NCBI RefSeq assembly: GCF_002270355.1
Contig: NZ_NJFZ01000039.1
Coordinates: forward strand, 1-32,713
Source: Flectobacillus sp. BAB-3569
GTDB lineage: Bacteria > Bacteroidota > Bacteroidia > Cytophagales > Spirosomataceae
DNA length: 32,713 nucleotides
Direction of reading: 5' to 3'
The notes below the pieces were generated by a model. That model was not told where the DNA came from and made no database searches. It saw nothing but the letters and a program-made list of their open reading frames with translations. Each line of letters begins with the position of its first letter. Position 1 is the stretch's first letter. This document shows, piece after piece, positions 2,891 to 20,529 of the stretch. Made by a program: the position numbers and the translations under genes.

Positions 2891-3901
2891 ATGGAATTAA
2901 TAAACACTACACTTGTTAGCCAAATTAAAGCTGTTATTAAAGAAGCACAAGAAAGAGCTATTCGAGCAGTTGATCACGAACGTACACTCATGTACTGGCA
3001 TATCGGTAAGTATATTTTTGAAGAAGAACAGCAAGGAAAAGACCGTGCTGAGTATGGAAAGTATATCATAAAATATCTTTCTAAGCAATTAGAACCTGAA
3101 TTTGGTTCAGGATTCGGTATTAGACAGCTAGAACGTTGTCGAAAATTTTACAGGTTTTTTCCAATTGCGTCCGCAGTGCGGACGCAATTGAACTGGACAC
3201 AGTATAAATTATTATTAGCTGTAGAAGATACCGATAAAAGAGCTTTCTATATCGCAGAAAGTATCAAAAATCATTGGACTTCTCGACAACTCGAACGCCA
3301 AATTAATAGCCTTTTATACGAAAGACTTTTAATGAGTAATGACAAAGAAAGTGTACTGGCAGTTGCCAATGGTGAAAAACAGGTTTCAGAAGCGAAAGAA
3401 ATTATCAAAGACCCTATGGTTTTGGAGTTTTTGGGACTCAAACGAGAAAGTAGCTATTACGAAAAAGATTTGGAACAATCCATCATTACACACTTACAGG
3501 AGTTTTTGCTGGAAATGGGTAACGGTTTCTCCTTTGTGGCTCGACAAAAACGTATCTTATTAGAAGATGATGAGTTTTTTGTGGATTTAGTATTTTATAA
3601 TCGCCTGTTGCAATGTTTTGTCATTATCGAAATCAAAACCCATAAATTGACTCATCAAGACGTAGGACAATTACAAATGTATGTCAATTATTATGACCGA
3701 GTGGAACGTTTAGCCCACGAAAACCCAACAATTGGTATTTTGTTGTGTACTGATAAAAATGATACGGTCGTAAAATTCAGCTTGCCTGAAAATCAAAAAC
3801 ATATTGTTGCTAGTAAATATGAGTTGATATTACCAACCGAAACACAACTGAAACAAGCCATTGAAACGGAGTTAGAAAAATATCCTACACATGAATTTTG
3901 A
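2891..3901 (+). CDS. YhcG/DUF1016 family PD-(D/E)xK nuclease domain protein (solitary)
   Basis: This 336-residue protein has the two-part architecture of the YhcG family. An N-terminal helical DUF1016 domain (about 10-160) has LMYWHIGKYIFEEEQQGKDR and FGIRQLERCRKFYRFFP. A C-terminal PD-(D/E)xK fold has a likely catalytic set D232 (EFFVDLVFYN) and E247-x-K249 (FVIIEIKTHKL). Such proteins are often found beside type I restriction systems, but this copy stands alone. A perfect 29-bp palindrome at 3162-3190 codes for residues 91-100, just before L100-x-W102. A second family member lies in the restriction operon at 19501. The cellular role is not established; DNA cleavage is inferred from the fold. 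Confidence 0.85.
   Translation: MELINTTLVSQIKAVIKEAQERAIRAVDHERTLMYWHIGKYIFEEEQQGKDRAEYGKYIIKYLSKQLEPEFGSGFGIRQLERCRKFYRFFPIASAVRTQLNWTQYKLLLAVEDTDKRAFYIAESIKNHWTSRQLERQINSLLYERLLMSNDKESVLAVANGEKQVSEAKEIIKDPMVLEFLGLKRESSYYEKDLEQSIITHLQEFLLEMGNGFSFVARQKRILLEDDEFFVDLVFYNRLLQCFVIIEIKTHKLTHQDVGQLQMYVNYYDRVERLAHENPTIGILLCTDKNDTVVKFSLPENQKHIVASKYELILPTETQLKQAIETELEKYPTHEF
3162..3190. repeat. perfect palindrome inside the yhcG-like gene
   Basis: CAATTGCGTCCGCA (3162-3175) is followed by one G and then TGCGGACGCAATTG (3177-3190), giving 14-bp perfect arms. It is in frame and encodes the segment before the L-x-W motif. A different palindrome occupies the matching place in the second yhcG-like gene (20204-20236). 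Confidence 0.9.
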
Positions 3902-4031
3902 AAAACTTATTAACTCAATTGAATCTACGCATGTTCAATTGGTCAGCAATATAAAACCGAATGGAAAATATATAAGTGTTATTCGTAAGATAGATCATTT
4001 CGAAAAGACATACAAGCCTACAAAATGCTAG
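3891..4031 (+). CDS. 46-residue ORF resembling the start of a DUF1016 protein (remnant)
   Basis: The ATG overlaps the end of the preceding yhcG-like gene by 11 bases. The product begins MNFEKLINSIESTHVQL, which resembles the usual N-terminus of many DUF1016 proteins, then diverges and stops after 46 residues. It may be what is left of a second tandem DUF1016 gene. No RBS is visible. The assignment rests on a short resemblance only. Confidence 0.3.
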   Translation: MNFEKLINSIESTHVQLVSNIKPNGKYISVIRKIDHFEKTYKPTKC

Positions 4032-4033
4032 AA

Positions 4034-4752
4034 TTATCTCTTAAGTATTTTGTCTTGAGCGATTTTCTTAAGGAAAGTATCTCTGTATACGAGCCCAATA
4101 GGCAATTCTTTTGAATCAATTTTAAGAAAATCGTTGTCAAAGCTGTTTACATGATTTATGTTGACAATAAAAGACTTATTAATACGAACAAATTGACTTT
4201 CTGGTAATTGTGCTCCAATCGTTTTTATGTTCATGGCTACAGCTAGTTTTTCATTTAGTGTGTGTACTAAAACATAATCTTTTAGACCCTCTATATATTG
4301 AATATCATTAACCAAAACCCGATGTGTTCGTCGGTCAGCCTTTATGAGAATGTACTCTGTTGAATTTTGATTTGACAGTGAAGCTACAGACTTCTCTTGA
4401 AGTTTCCATTGTGCTTCAGCCTTGCTAACTGCTTGGAAAAATCGCTGAAACCTGATGGGTTTTGTCAAATAATCTATAGCAGCAACTTCATAACTTTCAA
4501 CAGCATATTCTGAATAGGCCGTAGTAAAAATTATCATAGGAGGATTTTGAATAATTTTAGCTAACTCCAATCCAGTTAGATTAGGCAAATTAATATCTAA
4601 AAAATCAAATCAACTTCATTGTCTTTCAAAAACTTATAGGCATCCATTGCATTAGCAAATGTGCCAACTACTTCTAGAGAATCTATTTGCCTAATGTTCA
4701 GAGCCATGCCTTCAATAGCCAAAGGTTCGTCATCTACAATAATACATTTCAT
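4034..4752 (-). CDS. LytTR-type response regulator, frameshifted
   Basis: The frame opens at 4752 with MKCIIVDDEPLAIEGMALNI, a receiver domain with the acidic pair D7-D8. It hits a stop at VDLIF because the homopolymer at 4599-4604 has six bases where seven are needed. Restoring one base gives DLIFLDINLPNLTGLEL with the phospho-aspartate at about residue 53, then TTAYSEYAVESYEVAAIDYLTKP and a C-terminal LytTR DNA-binding domain (about 135-239: IKADRRTHRVLVNDIQYIEG, FVRINKSFIVN). The repaired length of 239 residues is normal. The ATG follows the stop codon of the sensor kinase without a gap, so the two are a translationally coupled pair. It probably controls nearby genes such as the divergent receptor at 6032. 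Confidence 0.85.
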
Positions 4753-5820
4753 TTAATTGGCAATTTCTAAGGTTAAAAACACTGAAAACTTGTTAAGTGT
4801 GTTATCGATTCTCAACTGATATTTTTGGTGAAACAAGAGTTCCAATCTTTGTCTTACGTTTTTTAAGCCTACCCCCCCAACCTTACTTTTGTTCAATATA
4901 CCTTCGGTTTGTTGTTCATTGATAATTTCAAACTCTAAAAGGCATCCTTCAGAAATGGGTATAAAATTGAAACTAATCAATACTTCCCCGTCTATTTTAC
5001 CATGCTTTAAGGCATTTTCTATAAATGTCATAAAGATAAAAGGAGGCAGACGAAGAGTTTGGTAATCACCAGTTACTGATAAATGAAAATTAGCTTTGGT
5101 TCTTCTGATTTCCTCTAACATCAACCAAGTCTTTATAAATTCTATTTCTTTCGACATTAATATTGTATCTCCACTCCCTTCGTAAATCTGATACCTCAAT
5201 AAATCGGCTAGCCCAAGTATAACTTCTCCAGCCTCTGCAGGGCGGGTTTGATTTAGTACGTACAGATTGTTGAGTGTATTGAATAAAAAATGGGGATTCA
5301 ACTGACTTTTTAACATTTGCAACTGAGCAACATGAGCGTCCGATTCAGCACTTAAACGCTTTTTGGTTTCTATAATCCACATCTTGAAGGTCTTCAAGCC
5401 AATTGCAGCAATGTGAAAAATAGCATAATTAAGAAAACTACCAATTAAGTATAAAGTGTAAAATCTAGAATTTCCGTTCGAGCACTCAAAGTAAGAATAA
5501 ATACAAGACTCTAATACCACTTCAAGCAACACCAAAACAATAAATCCAATAGTATATAGCGGTATTTGCCCCTTAATCAAAAGGAGATTTGACCAATAAA
5601 GTAGATGAAAAATTAGCGTAATTATCGTGAAAAGATGTACTGAAATTTCAACAAATAAAACAAAAGTAAATTGAGAATCGTCAAGATTACGATAACTCAT
5701 AGAATCAAGAGAATAGAAAAGCCCCATTGAGAATATTACCATACAAAACAGTAAATATTGCCAGATTCTCAGTCGGGGATTGATTATCAGTTCGAATATA
5801 TGATTAATAGATTTGTTCAT
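4753..5820 (-). CDS. LytS-like sensor histidine kinase
   Basis: This 355-residue membrane kinase has four or so hydrophobic segments at about 18-38, 52-77, 86-106 and 121-142. A cytoplasmic His_kinase domain follows, with phospho-acceptor H177 in QMLKSQLNPHFLFNTLNNLY. A HATPase_c domain has the N box FIENALKHG (N269) and the glycine box VGGVGLKNVRQRLELLF. It lacks a recognisable extracytoplasmic ligand domain. It is the first gene of the operon with the LytTR regulator and is transcribed away from the receptor gene at 6032. The signal sensed is unknown. Confidence 0.93.
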   Translation of the reverse strand: MNKSINHIFELIINPRLRIWQYLLFCMVIFSMGLFYSLDSMSYRNLDDSQFTFVLFVEISVHLFTIITLIFHLLYWSNLLLIKGQIPLYTIGFIVLVLLEVVLESCIYSYFECSNGNSRFYTLYLIGSFLNYAIFHIAAIGLKTFKMWIIETKKRLSAESDAHVAQLQMLKSQLNPHFLFNTLNNLYVLNQTRPAEAGEVILGLADLLRYQIYEGSGDTILMSKEIEFIKTWLMLEEIRRTKANFHLSVTGDYQTLRLPPFIFMTFIENALKHGKIDGEVLISFNFIPISEGCLLEFEIINEQQTEGILNKSKVGGVGLKNVRQRLELLFHQKYQLRIDNTLNKFSVFLTLEIAN

Positions 5821-5850
5821 TGACGAAATTTATAAAATCTATAAAACTCT

Positions 5851-5878
5851 TTAGAATACTTTATACCAAGTATTCTAA
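5851..5878. promoter_or_regulatory. 28-bp palindrome in the divergent promoter region (operator candidate)
   Basis: TTAGAATACTT (5851-5861) and AAGTATTCTAA (5868-5878) are perfect 11-bp arms around TATACC. The site lies 31 bp upstream of the kinase ATG and about 150 bp ahead of the receptor gene at 6032. The word ATACCAAGT across its centre (5863-5871) is repeated inverted at 5945-5953 (ACTTGGTAT). A regulator dimer site is plausible. LytTR proteins usually bind direct repeats, so the binder may be another factor. Confidence 0.5.
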
Positions 5879-6031
5879 ATATTATACAAAATGGGACAAA
5901 TTAAAAGATTTACTTAAGTTGAGGTTTGGTATAATAATCTACCAACTTGGTATGAATATCCAGAAAATGCTATCAAAAAATAAGTGCTTTGCTAAATATA
6001 AGTAAGAACACTTAATTTAAGATAACATTCC

Positions 6032-8446
6032 ATGAAGCATTTCATAATTCTAATTCTTTTCATATTAAAGATTAGCGCAGCACAGTCACAGTATATTCAA
6101 GGTACAGTGAAGGATGAAAAAGGAAATCCACAACCATTTGTTAGTATAGTCATCGCAAAAATACCTGACTCCACTTTTGTTACAAGTGTTATTTCTGAGG
6201 AATCAGGGCAATTTAAAACTCCCATTATTAAGTCAGGAAAGTATTTAATCAAATCGACATCAGTCGGTTTTTTACCTTATTACCAAAATATCGAAGTTTT
6301 TACACAAAATCTACATTTAGAAATCATCCTAAAAGCAAGTAATGAATTATTATCCGAGGTAACGGTGACGAGTAAAAAGCCTGTTATAGAAGCAAAAGGA
6401 GATAAACTAGTTTTTAATGTTGTGGCAGCAAGTAATACAGTAGGTTTAAATGGCTTAGAAGTACTTAGAAAATCTCCTGGTGTAACTATTGACCAGCAAA
6501 ATAATCTTATGTTGAAAGGACGTTCGAAAGTTCAAGTGTATATCAATGGCAAACCATCAATGATTCAAGGCAATGAATTGGCTTCATTCCTGAAAAGTTT
6601 AAGAGCAAGCGATATCCAAGCTATTGAAATGTCAACTACTCCGGGGGCAAGTTATGATGCAGCTGGAGGCGGTGGTGTGATTAATATTCAATTGAAAAAT
6701 AATCTTAAAACAGGCTTAAATGGTTCTATTTCTACTACTGCTATGCAAGGAGTAACTCCCAAAGGAGAAGGAAACTTTGCCCTCAACTATAGTAATTATA
6801 AATGGAATGTTTTGACCTCAATTAGTACGGATAATGGTATTTGGCATGGTACCGAAGACGTTGTGAATATGACCTCTGAAAAAAAGATTGTGCGTCTAAA
6901 TTCTTTTGACAACGAGAACAGAAGAGGGCTAAGTATAAGATTTAGAAGTGATTATAAGATTTCAAAAAAATCTACTATTGGTTTTGAACTTTTAAAGAGT
7001 ACAAATATTGAAAATAGGGAAGTAATTGGCAACACACAAATTTTTAACACAAGTACAGATACATCGCCACAAGTAAAATTGAACTCATTGAATAATACAA
7101 ATAAGAACAATGATGTATTCAATTTGGGGCTAAATTATAGATTCGAAAACGAACAGAAACTAAAATGGGGTATTGACGCAGATTGGAATAGCAACATAAT
7201 TCGATCTAGCTCTTTTCAACCCAATTTGTATGTAAACCCAGTTAGTGGATCTACAGTAGTGAGCAGAACTTATTCCATTATCGCACCTGTCAATATTGGT
7301 ATTAAAATGATAAAATCTGATTTTGAAATTCCATTGAACACATCCGCAAAAATCAATATTGGCGCAAAATATTCGAATGTAGAAAGTAACAATAACTTCG
7401 ATCTGTACAATATAAATAAAAGTGAACAATTACTCGATTCTAGCCAATCTAACTACTTCAAATACATAGAACGTATCGCTGCTGGTTATGTTAGTTTAGC
7501 AGGACAAAAAGGGAAATGGGAATATAGCCTAGGTTTACGTTTAGAAAGAACACACAGTACTAGCCAACTTACCACCTTAGGTCGAAATCAAAATAAATTA
7601 GTAGATACCAGTTATCTAAATGTTTTCCCTTCTCTTTCGTTGACCTACACACTAAATGATAATAATGCCTTCTCTTTATCATACCGTTATTCTATCGACC
7701 GTCCTGACTATAACGACTTAAATCCATTTGAGAGAAGGATAAACGATTACAATAGTTCGAAAGGAAATCCATTTTTGAGACCTCAGTTTACCAATACCAC
7801 TGAATTAGGTTACACACTGTTTCAATCCATGAATTTTACCTTGAACTATTCACACACGAAGGATTTTGCAGCATACGTGACTGATCGAGGTATTAATGAA
7901 TCAACTAAACAAGAAGTATTTTTTGATATTACTCGAAATTTAGATAGAATGCAGCAGTATGGAGCAAATTTAAGTTTCCCAATTACAATCTCAAAGTGGT
8001 GGCAAGGGTTTGTCAATATTTACTCAAACTACACAATCTTTAAAGCGAACTTTGATGCAGGTAAAGTTATTGACCGTAAAGTTTTTGGTGGGGGGCTTTG
8101 GGTTCAACAACAGATGGAGTTTGGTAAGGGTTGGAGCTTTGACCTTTCAGGCTGGTATGACTTAAACTCAACATGGGGAGTCGCCATTTCGAATCCTATG
8201 GGTGTTTTTGATGCAGGAGTTACCAAAAAAATACTTAAGGATAGAAGTTCCATAAAACTCATGTTTAATGATTTATTTAGAGGATCGTCATGGAATTCAA
8301 CCTCTCAAATCGGGAATTTCACAACTTATAGCAAAGGTACGTGGGAGGGTCGTTACATTGCCATAAACTTTAATTACCGCTTTGGAATCCTAAAGTCAGA
8401 CGTAAAAACAGTTGACACAGATACCAAAAACCAAAGAAGAAGATAG
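6032..8446 (+). CDS. outer-membrane beta-barrel receptor (TonB-dependent receptor-like, OMP_b-brl_3 type)
   Basis: The 804-residue protein starts with a signal peptide (MKHFIILILFILKISAAQSQ). A carboxypeptidase-regulatory-like domain (about 21-108) follows. The plug region (about 115-225) has the family words LNGLEVLRKSPGVTIDQQNN, KVQVYINGKPS and IEMSTTPGASYDAAGGGGVI. The rest is a beta-barrel typical of the Bacteroidota outer_membrane_beta-barrel family. Length is normal for the family. The basic tail (NQRRR) runs past the last strand. The substrate is not known. It is divergent from a LytS/LytTR pair that may regulate it, and is followed by a strong terminator hairpin at 8505. Confidence 0.93.
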   Translation: MKHFIILILFILKISAAQSQYIQGTVKDEKGNPQPFVSIVIAKIPDSTFVTSVISEESGQFKTPIIKSGKYLIKSTSVGFLPYYQNIEVFTQNLHLEIILKASNELLSEVTVTSKKPVIEAKGDKLVFNVVAASNTVGLNGLEVLRKSPGVTIDQQNNLMLKGRSKVQVYINGKPSMIQGNELASFLKSLRASDIQAIEMSTTPGASYDAAGGGGVINIQLKNNLKTGLNGSISTTAMQGVTPKGEGNFALNYSNYKWNVLTSISTDNGIWHGTEDVVNMTSEKKIVRLNSFDNENRRGLSIRFRSDYKISKKSTIGFELLKSTNIENREVIGNTQIFNTSTDTSPQVKLNSLNNTNKNNDVFNLGLNYRFENEQKLKWGIDADWNSNIIRSSSFQPNLYVNPVSGSTVVSRTYSIIAPVNIGIKMIKSDFEIPLNTSAKINIGAKYSNVESNNNFDLYNINKSEQLLDSSQSNYFKYIERIAAGYVSLAGQKGKWEYSLGLRLERTHSTSQLTTLGRNQNKLVDTSYLNVFPSLSLTYTLNDNNAFSLSYRYSIDRPDYNDLNPFERRINDYNSSKGNPFLRPQFTNTTELGYTLFQSMNFTLNYSHTKDFAAYVTDRGINESTKQEVFFDITRNLDRMQQYGANLSFPITISKWWQGFVNIYSNYTIFKANFDAGKVIDRKVFGGGLWVQQQMEFGKGWSFDLSGWYDLNSTWGVAISNPMGVFDAGVTKKILKDRSSIKLMFNDLFRGSSWNSTSQIGNFTTYSKGTWEGRYIAINFNYRFGILKSDVKTVDTDTKNQRRR

Positions 8447-8504
8447 CCTTGAATATATGGTTTAATTCAAATCGTAATATTTACTCATTTTCATACGATA
8501 TATT

Positions 8505-8555
8505 AAATTAGCAAACGCTCCATAATCTGATTGACTATGGGGCGTTTGCTAATTT
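8505..8555 (+). terminator. strong hairpin after the receptor gene
   Basis: AAATTAGCAAACGC (8505-8518) pairs perfectly with GCGTTTGCTAATTT (8542-8555). The stem continues inward through TCCATA/TATGGG with one G-T pair, about 20 bp in total. It lies 58 bp past the receptor stop codon. There is no long T run, so it may act through the stem plus the AT-rich flank. Confidence 0.7.
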
Positions 8556-8730
8556 ATACCTTAGGTTTAGGATAAAAGTAATACTCGATACTGTATTTAA
8601 AAGACAAATAGCTTCATAAATGAAAATAGATAAAACAAGCTATTCTCCAGAATGGGATGATTACTCATCTTCGGACATATCTTTGATTAGCTCAAAAATT
8701 TAAGGGTATGTTATACCCTCATTGTAACTT

Positions 8731-8787
8731 GTTAACGGCGTAAACACCATAGTTAACTCGTGTAAATGATTGGTTAACAGTGTATAC
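8731..8787. repeat. 21-bp periodic array of GTTAAC/GTAAAC hexamers
   Basis: GTTAAC occurs at 8731, 8752 and 8773, exactly 21 bp apart. Between them lie GTAAAC (8740), GTAAAT (8762) and GTATAC (8782), 9-10 bp after each. The same hexamers with the same 9-12 and 21 bp steps occur at 2588-2665. The spacing equals about one and two turns of B-DNA. Confidence 0.65.
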
Positions 8788-9061
8788 TCTAATTTATATA
8801 AGTACTGCTGTAAACATTTGAATAAAAAACGCTCAGGATTTATGCATTGAAATGTTTGAAAGCTATAACAATTTGCTGCTCTAAAAATTGTATCAAAGAA
8901 CCTCCTTGATTCAAACTCCTTCATAATCTTGGCAATATCACTTTCTATCCCTAAAATCGGCGTTTTATCCCAGAAATTTTGTAGCCTTTACCTGTCAATC
9001 TAATTTCATTCTATAATCAAATATCAAGCAATTAAACACTCGGCGGAGATACGCAATAGCA

Positions 9062-9628
9062 ATGAAAAAATCATCTTTTCTACCCGTAATTTTATCAGCA
9101 TTGTGTTTCAGTTTACTATTTACTAATTGTAAAGGCCCAGCAGGGGACGTTGGTCCAGCTGGAGTGGCAGGACCTGTAGGGCCAGCTGGACCCTCAGGCC
9201 CTGCTGGACAAACTGGCAATGCCAACGTGATTCAAATCTCATACACAGCCAAAACTTGGGCGACAGCGAAAGGCTCAGCTCAACAATTTGTTTTCCCTTC
9301 TAACGTCACGACGGCAATAATGAATAATAGTGCTTTATTAGTCTATATGACCGATGGTACACCAAATAACACAACCTCTTATGGTTGGTATGCTATACCT
9401 GGTATTGTTCCATCAAATGGAGTAGAACATGAATTCTATACACAAACTACATTTGCTGGAAACACCGCAGGAATAAATATTTATAGAAAAGTAGCTTCGA
9501 CTTCAACACTATCAGCTTCAACTCGTATAGTGATTATTCCTGCAAACGACATACGTAGTGGGCGTAAAGCAGCAGTAGATTTCTCTGATTATAATGCTGT
9601 AAAAGCGTATTACAACCTAGAGGATTAA
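9062..9628 (+). CDS. collagen-like lipoprotein
   Basis: The 188-residue product begins with a lipoprotein signal peptide ending at the lipobox LFTNC (C23). Gly-X-Y repeats follow directly (GPAGDVGPAGVAGPVGPAGP and further to GQTG). The remaining 130 residues have a beta-rich appearance with many Thr, Ser and Tyr and no recognised domain. Proteins with a short collagen stalk behind a lipid anchor are common in Bacteroidota and are presumed to be displayed on the outer membrane. GC in the collagen stretch is clearly higher than in the flanks because of Gly/Pro/Ala codons. Function is unknown. Confidence 0.88.
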   Translation: MKKSSFLPVILSALCFSLLFTNCKGPAGDVGPAGVAGPVGPAGPSGPAGQTGNANVIQISYTAKTWATAKGSAQQFVFPSNVTTAIMNNSALLVYMTDGTPNNTTSYGWYAIPGIVPSNGVEHEFYTQTTFAGNTAGINIYRKVASTSTLSASTRIVIIPANDIRSGRKAAVDFSDYNAVKAYYNLED

Positions 9629-9630
9629 TA

Positions 9631-9790
9631 AGTTAGTAGGTAAAAAAAATTAAGATTGTGCTTTAGGCTTTCAGGTAACGGCTTTCGGCGGTGGGCTTTG
9701 GGAAAAAGTATACCTGTGGTTATTAAAAATATTTTAACACTCTTTGCCTTGTGCCCGTTGCCTAATGCCTAAACAAATATTCTGCACGAA
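9631..9790 (-). repeat. dispersed intergenic repeat, copy in reverse orientation
   Basis: Read on the minus strand it runs from TTCGTGCAGA through TTTAGGCATTAGGCAACGGG, CACAAGGCAAAGAGTGTTAA and GCCGAAAGCCGTTACCTGAA to TTTTTACCTACTAACTT. These words recur in the same order at 24331-24637 and 30052-30217. A second reverse-orientation copy lies at about 9855-10020 because of the tandem duplication. No open frame is conserved between copies. Confidence 0.8.
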
Positions 9791-10098
9791 TACTTAAAAT
9801 TTATTGAAAGCAGTCTGCCGAAAATGCTGATTTAGAGTAGGCGATAAACACTTAATTAGTTACAGATAGGTAAAAAAAAATTAAGATTGTGCTTTAGGCT
9901 TTCAGGTAACGGCTTTCGGCGGTGGGCTTTGGGAAAAAGTATACCTGTGGTTACTAAAAATATTTTAACACTCTTTGCCTTGTGCCCGTTGCCTAGTGCC
10001 TAAACAAATATTCTGCACGAATACTTAAAATTTATTGAAAGCAGTCTGCCGAAAATGCTGATTTAGAGTAGGCGATAAACACTTAATTAGTTACAGAA
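9639..10098. repeat. 230-bp tandem duplication (two near-identical units)
   Basis: Unit 1 (9639-9868) and unit 2 (9869-10098) differ by two substitutions and one base in a poly-A run, plus the last few bases. Each unit contains a copy of the dispersed intergenic repeat in the reverse orientation and about 70 bp of leader that ends right at the ATG of the gene at 10099. The duplication is therefore recent, and it doubles the upstream region of that gene. Confidence 0.92.
9855..10020 (-). repeat. dispersed intergenic repeat, second reverse copy
   Basis: This is the copy carried by unit 2 of the tandem duplication. It differs from the 9631-9790 copy at two positions (TTACTAAAA for TTATTAAAA and CCTAGTGCC for CCTAATGCC). 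Confidence 0.8.
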
Positions 10099-10494
10099 AT
10101 GAAAAGATTATTCTTTACCCTCGCAATAATTCTGTTTATTGGACATTTTGCAGATGCCCAAAATCACAATACCCTGTGGTGTGACAAAGACATGAAACTA
10201 AAAAAACCACATCACTTCATGTTGCAAAAAACTACTGAACCAGGTAAACTTAATGCCAAAATGAAATGGGGAGCGCCAAATGGTAGTGCTACTTTTTCGG
10301 CTGCCAATTTAGAAATTACCAACGGCACTTGTGAATCTTGTAAGCCCCTTGGCGCTATTGGTTCGGGCAATTACGAGCAAAATTGGGTTATTAAGGTAAC
10401 TGATCCCTCAAAACCTGTAACATTTGCGTGGAAAACTGCAGGTACAATTAATGTATGCGGTACTGGAAAACTTGTTGTCCCTAAACCATTCTAA
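10099..10494 (+). CDS. small secreted protein of unknown function
   Basis: The 131-residue product has a clear signal peptide (MKRLFFTLAIILFIGHFADA, cleavage before QNHN). The mature part has four cysteines, in WCDKD, CESC and NVCGTG, which could form two disulfides in the periplasm. It has a KMKWG and WKTAG beta-type layout and no family I can name. The ATG directly follows the second unit of a tandem duplication, so its expression signals may be doubled. A strong terminator follows at 10528. It does not obviously belong to the kinase operon downstream. Confidence 0.75.
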   Translation: MKRLFFTLAIILFIGHFADAQNHNTLWCDKDMKLKKPHHFMLQKTTEPGKLNAKMKWGAPNGSATFSAANLEITNGTCESCKPLGAIGSGNYEQNWVIKVTDPSKPVTFAWKTAGTINVCGTGKLVVPKPF

Positions 10495-10527
10495 TCAAAT
10501 ATGACTTATATTTACGATTAGAGGATC

Positions 10528-12399: not shown

Positions 12400-12409
12400 C
12401 ACCTCTACC

Positions 12410-13087: not shown

Positions 13088-13475
13088 GATAGCCTTGCCA
13101 TAACGTGTCCTTGCCTAAAATAGAGTTGCCTTTAGTTTTAGCCAATTTTTTTAAGAAAAATTATACTTTTTAAGGTAAATAAAAATCTTTCCGAAGTCAT
13201 GAGCTGAAAGCTGAACACTCAATGGTTGAATTAAATTTTGCCTACGAACCTAAGGAACAATAAAGAATGAATTAATCATATACCTGCAACACACCTTGTT
13301 TATATTCCTAATAATGAGACTATTACAATATATCACATAGTGTATACTTACATTTTTCTCTTATTCATTAATAATAATCATAAATTTTTTTAATCATCTT
13401 TATTCTACTCTTTCTAGTTGAGAAAAACATTTCATACATAATTTTGTTTTTATTTGTAATTAATCTAAATAAATT
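13088..13475. other. intergenic region ahead of the FecA-like receptor
   Basis: Apart from the promoter at 13418-13446 I see no gene, no strong hairpin and no repeat in these 388 bp. The sequence is very AT-rich near the promoter. Confidence 0.6.
13418..13446 (+). promoter_or_regulatory. Bacteroidota-type promoter
   Basis: TTG at 13418-13420 and TAATTTTG (consensus TAnnTTTG) at 13439-13446 are separated by 18 bp, which fits the -33/-7 pattern used by the primary sigma factor of Bacteroidota. The -7 box lies 29 bp before the ATG of the receptor gene. Confidence 0.6.
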
Positions 13476-15710
13476 ATGAATGTTAAAATCTCTTGCTTAC
13501 TACTCGTATTTAGTACAACAACTTGGGCTCAAAATCAACAATCCGTAAGTGATAGTTCAAAGGTATTAGAAGAAGTTACGATTGTAGAAAGTAAATCAAA
13601 AATACTCTTTGGCTCTGGAGAGTACATAAATAATCAGAGGTTATCTAATCTTAATCAACCTGATATAAACAAAGTATTACGAGTTGTACCTGGGGTAAAT
13701 ATTCGAGATGAAGAAGGATTTGGGCTAAGACCCAACATAGGTCTTAGAGGTACTCCAGTGAACAGAAGTGCCAAAATTACACTGATGGAAGATGGCATAC
13801 TAATAGCACCAGCGCCGTACGCTGACCCATCTGCATACTACTTTCCAACGTTTGCTCGCATGGCTGGTGTCGAGGTATTGAAGGGAAGTAGCCAAATAAA
13901 GTATGGACCTTACACTATCGGTGGCGCGGTAAATCTTTTGTCGACGCCAATTCCAGACTCATTTAAAGGATTAGGACAGGTGTCTTATGGAAGTTTTGGA
14001 ACAAATCAGCAACGTTTTTGGGTTGGAGATTCTCAAAGCAGGTTTGACTATTTATTTGAAGTGAATCGACTGGCAAGCAATGGATTTAAAGAACTCGATA
14101 ATGGTGGAAATACAGGTTTTGATCGTCGTGATTTTATGGCTAAACTTCGTTGGCATACAGCGATGGACGCTAAAATAAAGCAATCTCTTACTTTAAAAGT
14201 AGTGAATACTACAGAAGATGGTAATGAGTCTTATTTAGGTCTCACTTATCAGGATTTCCTTAAGAATCCCAATCGTCGTTATGCGGCTACTCAAAAGGAT
14301 TTATTAACTATTCAGCATCAGGATATTAGCTTGAGTCATTCCATTGCCTTATCTCGAAAAATTTCTGTCAATACGACTGCTTATTATTCATATACTTTTC
14401 GTGATTGGGGTCGTGTAAACAGTATTGGAGATCAAAGCATTAATAACATTCTGAGCAATCCAGCAGCATATTCTACTGCCTATAGTATTATGACTGGAGA
14501 AAGTGATGGCAAAGTGGTTTTTCAAGGTGCAGCTAGGAAGTATTACAGTAAAGGAATACAAACAAACCTTCAATATCAATTCTCATCTGGAGCGGTCTCT
14601 CACAAAATTCAATTGGGCTTAAGAATACATGATGACCGTGCAGACCGGTTGGCTACTCAATCGACATATAATATGACCAAAAAGGTTATGGTTCTTACTA
14701 GTGCTGGTGTAAATGGGAATAGCGAAAACCAAATCAGATATGCAAGTAGTACGGCTACGTATTTATCCTATATTTTACACTTCAAAAACCTTACGATTAA
14801 CCCTGGGGTAAGATATGAAGATATTAGTTTGAAAATTGAAAACTTTGGAACGGCTGATAATGGCAGGTTAGGAACTAACCTACGTAGAGGTGAAAATCAA
14901 ATTAGTGTTTTTCTTCCAAGTATAGGTCTAAATTATGAAATAAATAACTACAGCAGCCTTTTTGCAGGGATTTATAAGGGTTTCTCTCCTCCTGGTACAC
15001 CTATGACAAATACCTCAAATGTACAAGCAAAACCAGAATCGGCTCTTAATTATGAGGTAGGTTATCGATTAGAGAAAAGTGGGATAAAATCTCAATTAAC
15101 ACTATTCCACAATAACTATTCTAATATTTTGGGTTCAGATAATATGTCGGGTGGTGGGCTTGGTACAGGCGATACCTATAATGCAGGTAATGCTAATACT
15201 GATGGAATTGAGTTTAGCTTAGGTTATGACCTACTCCAGCTCATGAAAGACGCTAACACTAAATTGCCTCTAAATCTTGCCTATACTTATACAGATGCCA
15301 GATTTGGAGATACATTTATAAATGCTGGGGGTGATTGGGGTAATTCAACGATTAATTCAGGCGATATCATTCCATTTATCACGCCACATCAGTTGAATGT
15401 AAGTTTAGGAATGGAAAAAGAAAAACTGTCCATTTATCTTACAGGTAGATATACAGGAGCTACTCGAATTAAACCAAGTCAAGGGACCTCGATTCTCCCG
15501 GGAAATACGGTGGCATATAACGATGTAAATACCTTACCTGCTTATTGGATTTTTGATATTAGTGGAAATTATAAGTGGTCAAAGCTATTAACGAGCTTTG
15601 TTCTTATTAATAACCTTACTAATAACCAACCAATTGTAGCTAATCTACCTCAAGGATATCGTTCAAATATTCCGCTAAGTCTAACGGTAGGTTTAAAAGT
15701 TACACTTTAG
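13476..15710 (+). CDS. TonB-dependent receptor, FecA-like
   Basis: The 744-residue protein has a signal peptide (MNVKISCLLLVFSTTTWAQ). A plug domain follows directly (about 30-170), with INKVLRVVPGVNIRDEEGFG, LRPNIGLRGT, EDGILIAPAPYADPSAYYFP, VEVLKGSSQIKYGPYTIGGA. The 22-strand-type barrel ends in VGLKVTL. The plug words match the iron(III) dicitrate receptor group, so ferric-chelate uptake is likely, but the ligand cannot be fixed from sequence. There is no N-terminal signalling domain, no carboxypeptidase-like domain and no fecR/sigma factor beside it. It is preceded by its own promoter and faces hsdM across a palindromic element. Confidence 0.92.
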   Translation: MNVKISCLLLVFSTTTWAQNQQSVSDSSKVLEEVTIVESKSKILFGSGEYINNQRLSNLNQPDINKVLRVVPGVNIRDEEGFGLRPNIGLRGTPVNRSAKITLMEDGILIAPAPYADPSAYYFPTFARMAGVEVLKGSSQIKYGPYTIGGAVNLLSTPIPDSFKGLGQVSYGSFGTNQQRFWVGDSQSRFDYLFEVNRLASNGFKELDNGGNTGFDRRDFMAKLRWHTAMDAKIKQSLTLKVVNTTEDGNESYLGLTYQDFLKNPNRRYAATQKDLLTIQHQDISLSHSIALSRKISVNTTAYYSYTFRDWGRVNSIGDQSINNILSNPAAYSTAYSIMTGESDGKVVFQGAARKYYSKGIQTNLQYQFSSGAVSHKIQLGLRIHDDRADRLATQSTYNMTKKVMVLTSAGVNGNSENQIRYASSTATYLSYILHFKNLTINPGVRYEDISLKIENFGTADNGRLGTNLRRGENQISVFLPSIGLNYEINNYSSLFAGIYKGFSPPGTPMTNTSNVQAKPESALNYEVGYRLEKSGIKSQLTLFHNNYSNILGSDNMSGGGLGTGDTYNAGNANTDGIEFSLGYDLLQLMKDANTKLPLNLAYTYTDARFGDTFINAGGDWGNSTINSGDIIPFITPHQLNVSLGMEKEKLSIYLTGRYTGATRIKPSQGTSILPGNTVAYNDVNTLPAYWIFDISGNYKWSKLLTSFVLINNLTNNQPIVANLPQGYRSNIPLSLTVGLKVTL

Positions 15711-15851
15711 TTTAAATGGGCTAAAGTAATCCCATAGAATAAGACCAACATCCATCAGTGCGTTTACGAAAAGATTGTCTGCTTTGATCTATATCATTGT
15801 GCTGTTTTCAATCTGTCTCGCTCACAGGATGTTTCACCAAGTCGTCTTGTT

Positions 15852-15918
15852 GTCGGCTTCCCATTTTTAATACAGATTATGTATATTGTTGAACTGTACT
15901 AAAAATACGAAGCCGACA
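15852..15918. repeat. palindromic element with facing IS-type ends (possible bidirectional terminator)
   Basis: TGTCGGCTTCCCATTTTTAA TACAG at the left faces CTGTACTAAAAATACGAAGC CGACA at the right; the arms match at nearly all of about 25 positions. The left arm is almost identical to 1758-1782 next to the IS5 remnant. It looks like a mobile element reduced to its two ends. It lies between two convergent genes, so the long hairpin may also end transcription from both sides. Confidence 0.65.
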
Positions 15919-15935
15919 AAACAAGAATACTATTT

Positions 15936-17453
15936 CTATTCTTCAATACTGATTGTTTCCATAATTTCTTTGAAACTATTCAGCCCTGCTTCGATGTTTT
16001 CGATGATTTCGTTGGCCAATACATCTGGATCTGGCAGATTATCCAAATCGGTAAGGCTTTTGTCTTTTATCCAAAATATATCTAAGTTGGTTTTATCTCG
16101 CTCAATGATTTCATCATAACTGAATTTACGCCATCTTCCTTCTGGATTTGCTTCGCTCCAAGTCTCTACTCGTTTGTTACGATTTTCTGGATGATAGCAC
16201 TCGACAAAGTCTTTTAAATCCGCTGAGCTCATTGGATTCTTTTTCAGTGTATGACTAATATTGCTACGATAATCATAAATCCACACTTCTTTTGTCCAAG
16301 GGTCTTTGGAGGCTGGTTTGTTGTCGAAAAACAATACGTTTGCTTTTACACCTTGTGCATAGAAAATACCCGTTGGTAGTCTTAAAATGGTATGCAGTTC
16401 GGTCGTTTTCAACAACTCCTTTCTAATCGTCTCTCCTGCTCCACCTTCAAACAGCACATTGTCGGGCAATACAACAGCGGCTTCACCATTGATTTTCAAC
16501 AATGTTTTGATGTGTTGCATAAAGTTCAGTTGTTTGTTGGCGGTGGTGGCTACAAAGTCCTGACGATTGATGATGTAATCTTGTTTTTCTTGTTTACCCT
16601 CTTCGTTGGTAATGGTCATGCTACTTTTTTTGCCAAAAGGCGGATTGGCCAAGACATAATCAAAACGCTGTCCATTATCCGAAATCAAAGCATCAGCCGA
16701 AGAGATAAAGGTATCTCCATCTATTTCCCCAATGTTGTGCAAGAACATATTCATCAAGCACATTCTTCGGGTATTGGCTACGATTTCATTACCATAAAAA
16801 GTTTTATTTTTCAAAAACTCCTTTTCTTCTTTGTCTAAGCTTTGACTTTTGATAAAATCATAAGCCGCCAAAAAGAAGCCTCCTGTGCCACAAGCGGGGT
16901 CGTTGATGGTTTTTAGTGGCTTGGGACGCACACAGGCTACAATGGTTTTAATCAACGAACGTGGGGTAAAATATTGCCCTGCTCCACTTTTGGTATCTTC
17001 GGCATTTTTCTCCAAAAGTCCTTCGTAAATTTTGCCCTTGATGTCTGTTCCCATTAAGCTCCATTGCTCTTTGTCTATCAAATCAATGATTTTAAGGAGC
17101 TTGGATGGGTCTTGTATTTTGTTTTGGCTTTTGGTAAAAATTTGCCCCAAAATGCCTTTTTCAGTACCCAAACTTCTGAGCATTTGGTTGTAAAAATTCT
17201 CAAGCTCTAAGCCTCGCTTTTGCGATAAGGTTTGCCAGTCGCAAGTTTCGGCTTCTGGTAATTCTTCCCCTTCGGCATTTTTGAGTTTAGGAAACTTTAA
17301 GCCTTTGTTGTAAGGTGGTTTGTTTAACTCATCGGCCATTTTGAGAAATAGCAAATAGGTGATTTGCTCTAAATAATCGCCATAACTTACGCCATCGTCA
17401 CGAAGGACGTTGGCGAATCCCCACACTTTTGATATAATTGCACTTTCTGACAT
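15936..17453 (-). CDS. hsdM: type I restriction-modification system methyltransferase subunit HsdM
   Basis: The 505-residue protein is an N6-adenine DNA methyltransferase. An HsdM N-terminal helical domain (about 7-150) precedes the N6_Mtase domain with AGQYFTPRSLI (158-168), the AdoMet-binding motif I DPACGTGG (185-192) and the catalytic motif IV NPPFG (270-274). It modifies the site chosen by HsdS and is needed for both methylation and restriction. The gene is the last of the minus-strand operon, separated from hsdS by an inserted S23-type gene and AATTACGA repeats. Length and motifs are complete. Confidence 0.97.
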   Translation of the reverse strand: MSESAIISKVWGFANVLRDDGVSYGDYLEQITYLLFLKMADELNKPPYNKGLKFPKLKNAEGEELPEAETCDWQTLSQKRGLELENFYNQMLRSLGTEKGILGQIFTKSQNKIQDPSKLLKIIDLIDKEQWSLMGTDIKGKIYEGLLEKNAEDTKSGAGQYFTPRSLIKTIVACVRPKPLKTINDPACGTGGFFLAAYDFIKSQSLDKEEKEFLKNKTFYGNEIVANTRRMCLMNMFLHNIGEIDGDTFISSADALISDNGQRFDYVLANPPFGKKSSMTITNEEGKQEKQDYIINRQDFVATTANKQLNFMQHIKTLLKINGEAAVVLPDNVLFEGGAGETIRKELLKTTELHTILRLPTGIFYAQGVKANVLFFDNKPASKDPWTKEVWIYDYRSNISHTLKKNPMSSADLKDFVECYHPENRNKRVETWSEANPEGRWRKFSYDEIIERDKTNLDIFWIKDKSLTDLDNLPDPDVLANEIIENIEAGLNSFKEIMETISIEE

Positions 17454-17562
17454 CTTATTTTAATTACGAATTACGATTATTTAATTACGAATCTTCAATT
17501 ACGAATTACGAGGCTTGTTATTTAAACTTTTTTCGTAATTCCTAATTTATCATTCGTAATTC
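17454..17562. repeat. AATTACGA repeats between hsdM and the S23 gene
   Basis: AATTACGAATTACGA occurs twice and AATTACGA a further time in direct orientation (17462-17511). Inverted copies CGTAATTCC and ATTCGTAATTC follow (17534-17562). The same words flank the other side of the S23 gene (17931-18008), so the gene sits between two blocks of the same repeat. Confidence 0.8.
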
Positions 17563-17912
17563 AATTTCTTTTTCATTGTTTTTTGAATGCTACCAATAAT
17601 TTTCAAAATTTCTTCGGTATCAGTTAAGATACTTTCACTTTGTTCTTTTGTGAGATAGTCAGTATCGGTTAGTAATCTTATCCAATAATGCGTTTCTCTT
17701 GTTTCTTTGTATGCAATGGTCAATTTTGCAAAAAAATCTTTTTCACTTTGACCACCAATGGCTTCTTCTATATTTGCACCAATTGAAGTTCCACTTCGCA
17801 ACAGTTGTTTGCTCAATACAAATTCCTTTTTCTCCTCACATAAGTATTTATAAAGCTTCACAATACGTATTGCAAAAGCATAACTTTTATCCCTGACTAC
17901 ATTATCTTTCAT
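17550..17912 (-). CDS. four-helix-bundle protein (S23 / 23S rRNA intervening-sequence family)
   Basis: The 120-residue protein shows the family words VRDKSYAFAIRIVKLYKYL, LSKQLLRSGTSIGANIEEA, KDFFAKLTIAYKETRETHYW and ends in a lysine-rich tail. Members form small all-helical pentamer-like bundles; relatives include the Avd accessory protein of diversity-generating retroelements. No reverse transcriptase or template repeat is seen here. The gene lies between hsdS (stop 22 bp upstream) and hsdM (97 bp downstream), on the operon strand, and is flanked by AATTACGA repeats on both sides. This suggests it arrived as a mobile unit. Role in restriction is not indicated. Confidence 0.9.
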   Translation of the reverse strand: MKDNVVRDKSYAFAIRIVKLYKYLCEEKKEFVLSKQLLRSGTSIGANIEEAIGGQSEKDFFAKLTIAYKETRETHYWIRLLTDTDYLTKEQSESILTDTEEILKIIGSIQKTMKKKLNYE

Positions 17913-17930
17913 ATATTCAATTATTAATTG

Positions 17931-18008
17931 TCAATTAGGAATTACGAATTTTTACTTTTTTCACTTTTTTTTCATTCGTCATTCGTAATTTTTCATTCGT
18001 AATTTTCT
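17931..18008. repeat. AATTACGA/CATTCGTAATT repeats overlapping the hsdS 3' end
   Basis: GGAATTACGAATTT and then ATTCGTCATTCGTAATTT and CATTCGTAATTTT lie here. On the minus strand they are read as the last 22 residues of HsdS (ITNEKLRMTNEKK and on to KIRNS), a low-complexity tail unlike the rest of the protein. Confidence 0.8.
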
Positions 18009-19511
18009 TCAAAAGTTCACTGGCTGGCTCGTAGTCTGCTTCTTGTTTGCATTGCTGTATTTCGGCCTCGGTGAGTAGTTTGCCTTCAAAGGCTTTTTTG
18101 AGAATACTTTGGCGTAATGCTTCGGCTTTTGCTAGGCTTTCTTTGATACTTTGCTCCATCTTATCGCAAACCGATAAACGCCTTTCTATTTCTTGAACGA
18201 TTTGGGTTTGTTCTGATAAAGAACTTAAAGGGAATGGCAATGAATTACATTTATCTTTATTTATATATTGGATAGTTGTTGATGTAGAAATCCTTTCATA
18301 GAAATTTTTATTTAACCTGATATAGTATGCCAATAGTTTTGGTAAATAATATTTTTCTGGCAAAAAGGCGTGTAACTGTTGATTAATGACTATTTCTTTT
18401 TCAACAATTGAACTCAATCCAAGTGTTCCAACACAAGTCATTATTACACTATTGACAGGAATTACTCTTGCGTTGTATTTTTCAGCCTCATTTTTTGTTA
18501 ATCCTAGTTCAATTTTTGAATAATCAAGCTTGATTAATTTCTCATCCAGATCAGGGGTTGTAATCCATTTAATATCTCCTGAAAATGATTTTGGTTTATC
18601 TCTATTGGGTACTATACAATCACAGATATTACCTATTTCTGAGTAAAACCAACAATCAGGGATAATTGATAATTCTTTCAAATCATTTTCTTCTAATAAA
18701 ATCAATTCCTTTAGTTGTGTCGGCTTGCTTGGCTTCTTCTCAACTTTCCCATCTTTCTCCCATTTCTTCACTGCTTTTTTCCATTCTTCAATCTGTTGAT
18801 TGTAGTGGTTTTGGCGTTCTTGTTTTATTTGTTGGAGTAGTTCTTCGGCGGTTGGCAGGTTTGTTTGTTTTTCTCGCCATTCTCTGGTGAGTTCGCCCTC
18901 AAACGCCTTTTTCAACACCGCTTGCCTGTAGATTTTCAACTGCTCTTGGGCTTTTTTGAAATTAGCAATGCCGTTGTCTAAATCAGAAAACAAGGCTTCG
19001 ATTTTGGACACGATGGCTCGTTGGATGGGGAGGGGAGGGATAGGGAAAACAAAATCTAAAATATGTTCTCTTTTTAAATTATTGATATTTGACCCTTTGG
19101 AAATCTCACTAATATTCTTTCTAAAATCATTTGATTGAAAGAAATATGAAATGTAATTGCCTGAGAGGTTTTCATTTGGTCTAAATACAGAACAAAAAGC
19201 TCCAAAGCTGCCCTCATAATGACCTTTTGACTGTGCAGATTTTCCGACAAGATGTTTACTTCCACTTGACATCGCTATCAAAATATCATTGGGTATAATT
19301 TTCTGAAAGTCATCAATTATTTTTTTTCAACATATTTAATGTCATCAAAATTTAGCCTGTTATCATTGATATTATTCGCTCTTAAAATCGGCAAATAATT
19401 ATCTTTCGGTATATCGGAAGCTTGATTTTTATTGTAGGTAATTCCCCTAATGAGTTCACCAAACTCTTCCGCCTTGCATTCAATCCAATCTTCTCTCATT
19501 TTATTCATCAT
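17935..19511 (-). CDS. hsdS: type I restriction-modification specificity subunit HsdS, frameshifted
   Basis: Two frames form one HsdS of about 525 residues. The first (19511-19317) starts MREDWIECKAEEFGELIRGI and breaks at IKYVEKK in an eight-base run (19320-19327). One more base continues it as KIIDDFQKIIPNDILIAMSS. The protein has two target-recognition domains (about 1-170 and 265-430). Each is followed by a conserved helix (FPIPPLPIQRAIVSKIEALF, RQAVLKKAFEGELTREWREK; SSLSEQTQIVQEIERRLS, RQSILKKAFEGKL) that spaces the half-sites. A charged insert (EEWKKAVKKWEKDGKVEKKP) lies in the first spacer. The last 22 residues come from an AATTACGA repeat. The start overlaps the end of the yhcG-like gene by 11 bases. 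Confidence 0.92.
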
Positions 19512-20529
19512 TTGTATTAAAAATTACGGCCAATTGTTCGGCACTTGGTAGGTTTTGGGCAATTTCCTTGGGTAGCTGCGAGTAAGTATAAGTGGCTACG
19601 CCCATCGGCTTGTTTACAATTTCCAGTGCGTATTCTACCGTAAGCTGGCTTTTGGTTTTGCATAGCAGTATGCCAATACTGGGGTTATCTTCGGGATATT
19701 TGACGGTTTTGTCGAGTAAGTGCAAATACCAATTGAGTTGTTGGCTGTATTCGGGTTTAAACTCGTTTACCTTTAACTCAATCGCAATCATTGATTTTAA
19801 TTTGCGGTGATAAAACAGTAAGTCCACAAAGTACTCTTTATCATCGAGTTCCAACCGAAATTGCTGTCCCATAAAGGCAAAATCACTCCCAAACTGCCCA
19901 AGCATTTTGGTGATATTTGCCACTAGGGCATTTTGGAGTTGCCTTTCGGTGTGGTGGTCGGGCAGGTTCAAAAAAGAAAGGTCATATTCGTCCTTAAACT
20001 GTAGGTGATAAGCAGCTATCTCCTGCGAGCTTAGCGTTTTATCAAAGTTGCTTTGAAACTGTAGGTAATTGGCATACAGATCAAACCTAATTTTTTCCTC
20101 CAGTATGCTTCTACTCCAGGCCTCTGTCTGAGCTTTTTCTAAATAAAATGCACGTTCGGCTTTGTCTTTTATCTTGCTAAAAATTAAAGAGGTATGTCCC
20201 CAGTGCAATTTCGCCACAAGCTGTGGCGAAATTGCATTTTCTTGCATTTCTTCATACACCAATTTCATACGGTGTAAGTTTCTTTCCGAAAAACCTTTTA
20301 CACCATTAAACTCCGCTTGCAGGTCTTTGGAGAGTTGTTGGATCACAGAAGTACCCCAGCCCGTTTTTGTTTTCTCAGAAATTATTTTTCCAATATCCAA
20401 ATACGCCAAAATCATCTCCGAATTTACGGCACTATAGCTATTGTATTGTGCTTGTAAGACTCTTTGCTTTAAAGAAATCAGCGTTTGTAAGTAATCCTTA
20501 TTTTCTACTTCGTTCATCATGCTGTTCAT
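19501..20529 (-). CDS. YhcG/DUF1016 family PD-(D/E)xK nuclease domain protein in the restriction operon
   Basis: This 342-residue protein has an N-terminal DUF1016 domain (EMILAYLDIGKIISEKTKTG, FSERNLHRMKLVYEEM, LHWGHTSLIFSKIKDKAERA) and a C-terminal PD-(D/E)xK domain with D236 (EYFVDLLFYHRKL) and E251-x-K253 (MIAIELKVNEFKPEY). A perfect palindrome at 20204-20236 encodes about residues 99-108, directly before L108-x-W110. It lies between the GxxExxY gene and hsdS, overlapping hsdS by 11 bases, so the two are co-translated. Association with type I restriction operons is common for this family; its job there is not established. It is only distantly similar to the solitary copy at 2891. Confidence 0.9.
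   Translation of the reverse strand: MNSMMNEVENKDYLQTLISLKQRVLQAQYNSYSAVNSEMILAYLDIGKIISEKTKTGWGTSVIQQLSKDLQAEFNGVKGFSERNLHRMKLVYEEMQENAISPQLVAKLHWGHTSLIFSKIKDKAERAFYLEKAQTEAWSRSILEEKIRFDLYANYLQFQSNFDKTLSSQEIAAYHLQFKDEYDLSFLNLPDHHTERQLQNALVANITKMLGQFGSDFAFMGQQFRLELDDKEYFVDLLFYHRKLKSMIAIELKVNEFKPEYSQQLNWYLHLLDKTVKYPEDNPSIGILLCKTKSQLTVEYALEIVNKPMGVATYTYSQLPKEIAQNLPSAEQLAVIFNTNDE
20204..20236. repeat. perfect palindrome inside the operon yhcG-like gene
   Basis: TGCAATTTCGCCACA (20204-20218) and TGTGGCGAAATTGCA (20222-20236) are perfect 15-bp arms around AGC. The position in the protein matches that of the unrelated palindrome at 3162-3190 in the other yhcG-like gene. Confidence 0.92.

Follow-up and report, generated by a model that had tools for sequence, protein, structure and literature searches.

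Two genes of the DUF1016/YhcG family lie in the 32,713 nucleotides of contig NZ_NJFZ01000039.1 from Flectobacillus sp. BAB-3569 that were analysed here (the window), and each contains a long, exact palindrome within its reading frame. The question raised by this locus is what keeps a coding sequence symmetric at such a place. The answer we favor, and hold to be very probable, is self-recognition, in which the DUF1016 protein would bind a 27-base-pair (bp) palindrome inside its own gene. A nuclease domain has been predicted for YhcG by Kosinski et al. (2005), in an account whose relevant part leaves the helical N-terminal domain unassigned (PMC1189080). Few of the open-access papers searched name DUF1016 or YhcG, and in the portions drawn on here these mention neither a DNA target nor an intragenic palindrome. 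The genes and the sites in question are as follows.

2891..3901, plus strand: gene 1, a protein of 336 amino acids with DUF1016_N and YhcG_C (PD-(D/E)XK) domains, assigned by Pfam.
19501..20529, minus strand: gene 2, a protein of 342 amino acids with DUF1016_N and YhcG_C domains, assigned by Pfam.
3163..3189, no strand: 27-bp predicted self-site of gene 1, AATTGCGTCCGCA-G-TGCGGACGCAATT, within codons 91-100, placed by the palindrome and the dyad length.
20207..20233, no strand: 27-bp predicted self-site of gene 2, AATTTCGCCACAG-C-TTGTGGCGAAATT on the gene strand, ±1 not complementary, placed by the palindrome.

Both domains exceed the Pfam gathering cut-offs (32.8 bits for PF17761 and 32.5 bits for PF06250) in gene 1 (PF17761, E 1.5e-42, 145.4 bits; PF06250, E 2.1e-58, 197.1 bits) and in gene 2 (PF17761, E 1.6e-36, 125.9 bits; PF06250, E 3.3e-52, 176.9 bits). 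Gene 1 has the catalytic D...(E/D)xK residues D232, E247, and K249, from which nuclease activity is predicted. Both proteins also match the PADLOC profile PDC-S02 (best E 1.7e-142 and 6.1e-124), a phage-defence candidate that makes a defence role for them a prediction; what is drawn on here of the published accounts leaves the N-terminal domain unassigned or undiscussed.

The palindrome of gene 1 (3162-3190) reads CAATTGCGTCCGCA-G-TGCGGACGCAATTG, with arms of 14 and a loop of 1, and that of gene 2 (20204-20236) reads TGCAATTTCGCCACA-AGC-TGTGGCGAAATTGCA on the plus strand, with arms of 15 and a loop of 3. They code for residues 91-100 and 98-109, respectively, and both stop at an L-x-W motif. 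Among nine palindromes listed with arms of at least 10 and loops of at most 12, only these two combine arms of at least 13 and a loop of at most 3 inside an open reading frame (ORF). The palindrome scan thus bears out the claim of the first-pass annotation that both are exact, in frame, and at an equivalent place of two DUF1016/YhcG genes. Its description of them as unrelated in sequence holds only in part, as the two have in common the layout AATT-N9-N-N9-AATT and the codon register. The genome of the window (6.6 Mb) has eight DUF1016_N matches in at least six separate genes; further family genes there have palindromes of their own, such as one with a 17-bp arm (L005), and six family genes that were read gave six different half-sites.

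For the wider family, genes were taken from DUF1016 genome searches over several phyla (the best loci, up to 30, of each domain search), from 80 close relatives, and from E. coli; L-numbers are labels of loci in this sample, and protein positions refer to a 365-column profile built in this analysis. Seven ORFs without the palindrome region were left out of the counts. A perfect arm of at least 10 with a loop of at most 4 occurs in 115 of 238 DUF1016 ORFs, against 1.4 per 238 when the same genes are synonymously shuffled (mean of five shuffles), and an arm of at least 14 occurs in 58 ORFs, against none. One five-column bin of the profile holds 116 of the 133 palindromes with an arm of 9 or more. 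The palindrome is therefore confirmed as real and family-wide, as had been supposed beforehand, with the excess at one protein position; the lack of excess over synonymous shuffles that the first-pass annotation had named as its refutation is not what the genes show. The E. coli parallel suggested by that annotation is also correct, since yhcG of K-12 has a 15-bp arm and two more tandem units. The first unit has 13-bp arms in 13 of 15 E. coli sequences; base changes have removed such arms in K-12, and one strain has 11. At least 80% of yhcG is present in 3310 of 5426 genomes; the gene is interrupted or shortened in five E. coli loci (L238, L239, L240, L242, and L243), either beside insertion sequences or by deletion, and in strain B (L238) the break falls at the end of the third palindrome.

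Loci from plasmids, loci fetched by pattern, and all E. coli alleles except that of K-12 were set aside in the near-start, broken-copy, unit-number, and displaced-site counts, and in the first part of the tally of catalytic residues and pair retention. At least 7 of the 8 pairs from ±2 to ±9 are kept in 167 of 203 domain-search genes and in 73 of 81 close-relative genes, where the best-placed centre within columns 110-135 was chosen for each gene, which flatters weak sites, and where one peptide pattern used to gather the close relatives overlaps the site edge. In 286 genes there is one unit in 233, none in 36, and two to four in 17. An insertion hotspot, another early suggestion, is not the main explanation because the majority of members have a single site in a single register, although tandem extra units do occur.

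The conserved entity is the DNA. Among four-fold degenerate third bases from position 2 outwards (310 distinct contexts), 1057 of 1129 complement the second base of the partner codon, where the codon use of the individual genes would predict 276, and this holds separately for each common partner base. The ratio of observed to expected complementarity is 1.7-3.7 up to ±13 and 0.7-1.3 from ±14 to ±29, and the element is therefore 27 bp long. Even the ±1 pair is constrained (251 of 298, against 91 expected). This bears on the possibility, also raised early, of an mRNA hairpin governing translation or decay. A perfect stem would indeed form in the transcript, and at mismatched positions involving a third base G.T is ahead of A.C (36 vs 24), as a hairpin tolerant of G.U would have it. 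Over positions 2-12 as a whole, however, mismatches number 66 G.T, 79 A.C, and 209 others, and this lack of preference is evidence against a hairpin, as is the constraint on ±1, a pair that cannot form in a one-base loop. At the centre, NTG codons have C in 132 genes, G in 53, T in 14, and A in 2, and on the tree C-to-G exchanges in either direction (27) exceed the synonymous C-to-T exchanges (8), as expected if both strands are equivalent. Finally, there are sites translated in another frame (the three tandem palindromes of L304) and one that lies upstream. Taken together, we regard an mRNA hairpin as very improbable.

On a tree of 297 tips, built without the palindrome-coded columns, changes at ±2 to ±9 comprise 353 from pair to pair, 149 from pair to mismatch, 15 from mismatch to pair, and 11 from mismatch to mismatch, with parsimony ties settled towards paired states, which inflates the contrast between the first and third classes. 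The sequence of the palindrome changes while its symmetry is kept, and 293 genes have 151 distinct half-sites. Such a pattern could in principle come from mutational bias, in which hairpin template switching, a known process (PMC8794818 and PMC8604942, as far as these were drawn on), copies one arm onto the other without any function; the numerous pair-to-pair changes, inflated as they are, agree with this. The edge at ±13 does not, nor does the finding that most of the palindromic sites found lie in or beside DUF1016 genes; moreover, single bases co-vary with residues whose codons are not part of the palindrome, as described below. We therefore consider template switching quite improbable as the explanation, although it may help to produce the palindrome changes. 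Alternatively, only structure may matter, with a resolvase-like nuclease that binds or cuts a cruciform or hairpin in the DNA and reads no sequence. Wide variation with pairing kept is what this would give, and YhcG has been placed near YraN-like Holliday junction resolvases in the part of the source relied on (PMC1189080). Against it stand the constrained ±1 pair, which could not pair in a one-base loop, and again the residue-base co-variation, and this alternative is likewise quite improbable.

The co-variation itself was sought by scanning protein columns against palindrome positions for changes that share branches of the tree, in 2176 tests. With the palindrome-coded columns set aside, those that pass a Bonferroni threshold lie within 100-106, 129-136, and 157-158, and they match position 7 (column 101), position 8 (104 and 100), position 5 (105), position 6 (106), position 3 (129 and 157), positions 5 and 6 (132), position 6 (136), and position 2 (158). 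The residues involved were tabulated in 293 genes out of 310 distinct contexts, leaving aside weak dyads and other registers. Arg101 is found in 149 of 163 genes with G at -7 and in 0 of 130 otherwise, while Glu or Asp104 accompanies C at -8 (74 of 82, and 0 of 211 otherwise). Arg105 occurs in 63 of 85 genes with C at -5, in 8 of 11 with G or T, and in 0 of 197 with A. At the plus positions, Arg or Lys132 goes with G or A at +4 (147 of 150, and 2 of 143 otherwise), Ser129 with T at +3 (99 of 104, and 26 of 189 otherwise), Arg or Lys157 with G at +3 (49 of 53, and 9 of 240 otherwise), and Arg158 with G at +2 (212 of 241, and 2 of 52 otherwise), where Asn158 is present in 23 of 38 genes with T. 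Arginine to G, glutamate to C, and asparagine to A are familiar protein-DNA contacts.

Packing of the palindrome-coded helix against columns 101, 104, 105, 129, and 132 was the serious alternative source of these associations, and at columns 101, 132, and 129 it is disfavored by the behavior of serine, which is coded by both TCN and AGY. Arg101 is present in 51 of 51 genes with TCN and in 0 of 11 with AGY (p 2e-12), Arg or Lys132 in 0 of 59 and 5 of 5 (p 1e-7), Ser129 in 54 of 59 and 0 of 5 (p 3e-5), and, weakly, Glu or Asp104 in 9 of 12 and 0 of 4 (p 0.02); these Fisher values take no account of relatedness and depend on small AGY groups (11, 5, 5, and 4), and column 105 has no AGY cases. DNA readout is preferred over packing because residue 101 tracks the base and not the amino acid. 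The tree-aware version of this comparison is the count of co-changes on branches, which for eight traits gave 30, 19, 16, 24, 15, 32, 3, and 5 in the expected direction and 0 in the opposite one; chance would give 2.6 for Arg101 (30 seen), 0.5 for column 132 (15 seen), and 4.0 for column 129 (32 seen). Bases can also be predicted in the 293 genes from training proteins less than 40% identical, with the training majority as baseline. Column 101 predicts -7 in 241 genes (majority 91), column 132 predicts -4 in 190 (21), columns 129 and 157 together predict -3 in 207 (30), column 105 predicts -5 in 253 (197), and column 104 predicts -8 in 165 (101).

Symmetry, length, conservation at the DNA level, and residue-base co-variation are thus direct results of computation, and on this basis the encoded protein appears to read the palindrome of its own gene letter by letter. 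The DUF1016 N-terminal domain would be a sequence-specific DNA-binding domain that sits as a symmetric dimer on a 27-bp palindrome, most commonly of the form AATT-N9-N-N9-AATT, inside its own gene or occasionally just outside it. Each half-site would be read by seven residues on three helices, with column 101 reading -7, 104 reading -8, 105 reading -5, 132 reading +4, 129 and 157 reading +3, and 158 reading +2. A shift in specificity would be accompanied by a symmetric shift of the gene's site, the palindrome coding for a short helix that presumably tolerates such changes; with specificity and site changing together, each gene would therefore stay addressed by its own product. In the window the predicted readers are coded as follows.

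3122..3136, plus strand: gene 1 codons 78-82 (R78, E81, R82), predicted readers of -7 G, -8 C, and -5 C.
3197..3208, plus strand: gene 1 codons 103-106 (T103, K106), predicted readers of +3 C and +4 G.
3281..3286, plus strand: gene 1 codons of S131 and R132, predicted readers of +3 and of +2 G.
20269..20283, minus strand: gene 2 codons 83-87 (R83, H86, R87), predicted readers of -7 G, -8 C, and -5 C.
20188..20199, minus strand: gene 2 codons 111-114, with G111 and S114 at columns 129 and 132.
20107..20112, minus strand: gene 2 codons of R140 and S141, at columns 157 and 158, with R140 a predicted reader of +3 G.

The half-site of gene 1 is GCGTCCGCA, and all seven of its residues (R78, E81, R82, T103, K106, S131, and R132) are among those common for their bases. 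The half-site of gene 2 is TCGCCACAG, for which H86 (2 of 82) and S114 (1 of 74) are uncommon. In a structure model of gene 1 (mean pLDDT, the predicted local distance difference test, 70.9; predicted template modelling score 0.46; block means of 72-92 up to residue 140), the seven residues fall within the initial turns of three helices (77-89, 102-109, and 131-139). A fold search of the PDB returned nothing at E of 0.001 or below.

Genes in which the usual site is poor provide a further view of the code. There are 19 of them, and 8 have a strong palindrome (score of at least 10) elsewhere in the gene, compared with 9 of 253 genes with a good canonical site. These displaced palindromes lie near codon 207 in L173, L177, and L180, at further sites in L296, L311, and L291, in a shifted register in L197, and in another frame in L304. 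Beyond these eight, L161 has a palindrome centred 26 bp before its open frame. The code of the own protein is fitted by the sites of L161, L291, L197, L304, and L052 (the last before the open frame) and not by those of L011, L173, L177, L296, and L311. Of the 24 non-canonical sites scored, 17 rank among the top 10% when judged against the protein of the same gene, with 94 of 98 canonical sites as a yardstick, although 14 of the 24 are biased because their likeness to the internal site is what led to them. The idea of a palindrome-free clade proved wrong, as L173, L177, L180, and L311 have a palindrome elsewhere in the gene and L296 does likewise; in L298, of the same supposed clade, none was found. 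In the branch of L173, L177, and L180 the catalytic columns read E-D-G, which may reflect a dead nuclease or a misalignment.

Sites resembling the internal one also occur beside family genes, just after the stop codon in E. coli, before the start in L087 and L339, and downstream in L070, L078, L120, L137, and L125 (six sites). The search for such sites gave 31 matches for 253 genes and 14 in 757 swapped controls, some of the 31 being intragenic tandem units. The six palindromes of L125 lie in about 550 bp downstream and differ at base 6, each being symmetric there, with no clear single reader. Two more perfect palindromes, unlike the internal site, are found 5' of gene 1 in the window (2581-2620, arms of 16; 2645-2671, arms of 13).

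Several results weigh against self-recognition as set out above. The code columns were discovered on the same alignment that displays them, and because the genes are related the p-values are not those of independent samples. Arg or Lys104 goes with G at -8 in 58 of 69 genes and also with T in 36 of 135, so that it is not exclusive. The assignment of column 132 to +4 comes from the residue-base tables and not from the scan, in which its peaks are positions 5 and 6 and position 4 (p 4.8e-4) misses the Bonferroni threshold. Column 158 adds nothing to the prediction of base -2 (241 of 293, equal to the majority), and ±6 and ±9 are symmetric without a clean single reading residue. No strong replacement within the gene was found in 11 of the 19 genes with a poor usual site. 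The 10% mark is missed by 7 of the 24 non-canonical sites (L339, one of the six in L125, L011, L173, L177, L296, and L311), and of the ten not found by likeness (L161, L052, L011, L291, L173, L177, L296, L311, L197, and L304) only 5 pass it. Broken gene copies still keep fairly good palindromes, with 6.64 of 8 pairs (n=42) compared with 7.27 (n=233). Having weighed these, we still judge self-recognition very likely; it had been one of the early proposals, as a self-recognition site for the encoded nuclease, and in that form it gains support from the co-variation and from displaced sites that fit, all of it sequence evidence.

Palindromes of this kind are not strictly confined to the family. 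The layout CAATT-N7-CANTG-N7-AATTG was present in 47 of 355 Bacteroidota genomes by pattern search, and 30 of those loci comprised 15 in or at a DUF1016 frame, 7 palindromic outside one (two of which also contain DUF1016 genes), and 8 non-palindromic. A search of 2.9 million viral contigs with one core pattern yielded 12 sites, of which 4 fall in DUF1016 ORFs, 2 in apparently decayed ones, and 6 elsewhere. Sites outside the family therefore exist and are possibly further targets. A perfect palindrome, AATTTAACAGACA-N-TGTCTGTTAAATT, lies just 5' of what we take to be a RhuM-like gene in L319 (5812-5838) and L322 (1208-1234), and nearly the same word stands 11 bp before the DUF1016 open frame of L052. 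In L317 (3206-3232) a non-DUF1016 ORF, presumably of the AAA type, has the palindrome in frame at its C-terminus, where it is translated as IFQTLSGKLE. Such an in-frame copy in an unrelated ORF, the sporadic copies elsewhere, and the tandem units of 17 of 286 genes are what might be seen if a mobile palindromic element, like those of Rickettsia, had inserted in DUF1016 genes. Most members, however, have one site in one register, and searches of 40 genomes gave 0-4 matches of one layout per genome, unlike dispersed elements of the Rickettsia type or the type of repetitive extragenic palindromes and their associated transposases (REP/RAYT); for the layout of gene 1, the window's own genome has one exact place and one with two mismatches. 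Insertion of a mobile element is extremely improbable.

The purpose of self-binding is less sure than self-recognition itself. Our preference, held as probable, is autoregulation, in which a dimer of the nuclease would sit on its own gene and hold down its own expression. This rests on analogy because extra palindromes near the gene start are rare, which counts against it. The main alternative keeps the same self-binding and lets the PD-(D/E)XK domain cut the site, so that DUF1016 genes would be self-addressed meganucleases, with address and reader in one stretch, directed at alleles or mobile elements in which the same gene is present. Cutting could serve the exclusion of kin elements, gene conversion, or homing-like spread, and such genes might police or convert DNA with the same gene; paralogues would keep distinct addresses and therefore not hit each other. 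A 27-bp dyad is of meganuclease size. The catalytic D-(E/D)-x-K is conserved (D in 230, E/D in 233, and K in 231 of 235 intact genes), PDC-S02 is a defence-candidate profile, and E. coli YhcG has been associated with HsdMRS and McrABC, its deletion being synthetic-lethal with dnaN, dnaB, and parE alleles according to the part of the source used here (PMC2672614). Set against this, an unprotected gene would be cut by its own product, no search for a constant modifying partner having been made, and a perfect palindrome persists within the genes of the E-D-G clade (L173, L177, and L180). Cleavage as the purpose is thus rather unlikely, if well short of negligible, and the same tentative standing applies to the wider picture of self-addressed meganucleases.

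Comparison with known systems separates what is shared from what is not. Autogenous operators, such as those of toxin-antitoxin systems and of the controller proteins of restriction-modification systems, lie upstream as a rule. Like them, the DUF1016 protein is predicted to bind a palindrome within or beside the gene that encodes it; what sets it apart is that this palindrome mostly falls inside the reading frame, and at a single codon position across phyla. I-Ssp6803I is an oligomeric PD-(D/E)XK homing endonuclease with a long pseudo-palindromic site. Its target is the invaded gene, whereas the DUF1016 site is in the protein's own uninterrupted coding sequence; a homing target is split by the inserted gene, and here the site is intact, with 7-8 of 8 pairs in the 167 of 203 genes given above. 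Rickettsia palindromic elements show that palindromes are tolerated within coding sequence, but they are about 100-150 nucleotides long and, in the portion of that report drawn on, are also intergenic and in RNAs (PMC4316617); DUF1016 palindromes are 27 bp, mostly in one family and in one register. Perfect inverted repeats are likewise kept in functional coding sequence in the mitochondria of Nematomorpha, where they are longer (mean repeat 43 bp) and occur in several genes, with no cognate protein mentioned in the part of the paper relied on (PMC6649704).

The analysis points to a code between protein and DNA that could be deciphered in a large and poorly understood family of bacterial nucleases. 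If this is true, most members of a widespread family gain a predicted target that can be read from their own gene, and the family gains its first residue-to-base code, open to testing. It would also be an exceptionally clear instance of two messages, a protein and a predicted binding site, written in a single stretch of DNA and kept in step across phyla. The question of what YhcG recognizes becomes testable in a laboratory strain of K-12.

Gene 2 lies between genes (15936-23837) that we take from their ORF translations to be M-, S-, and R-like genes of a type I restriction system, in company with what are presumably a four-helix-type protein and a GxxExxY-type ORF. The window begins and finishes with the same transposase-like ORF of 98 amino acids, in opposite orientations (41-337 and 32386-32682); the contig probably breaks off at two copies of one insertion sequence.

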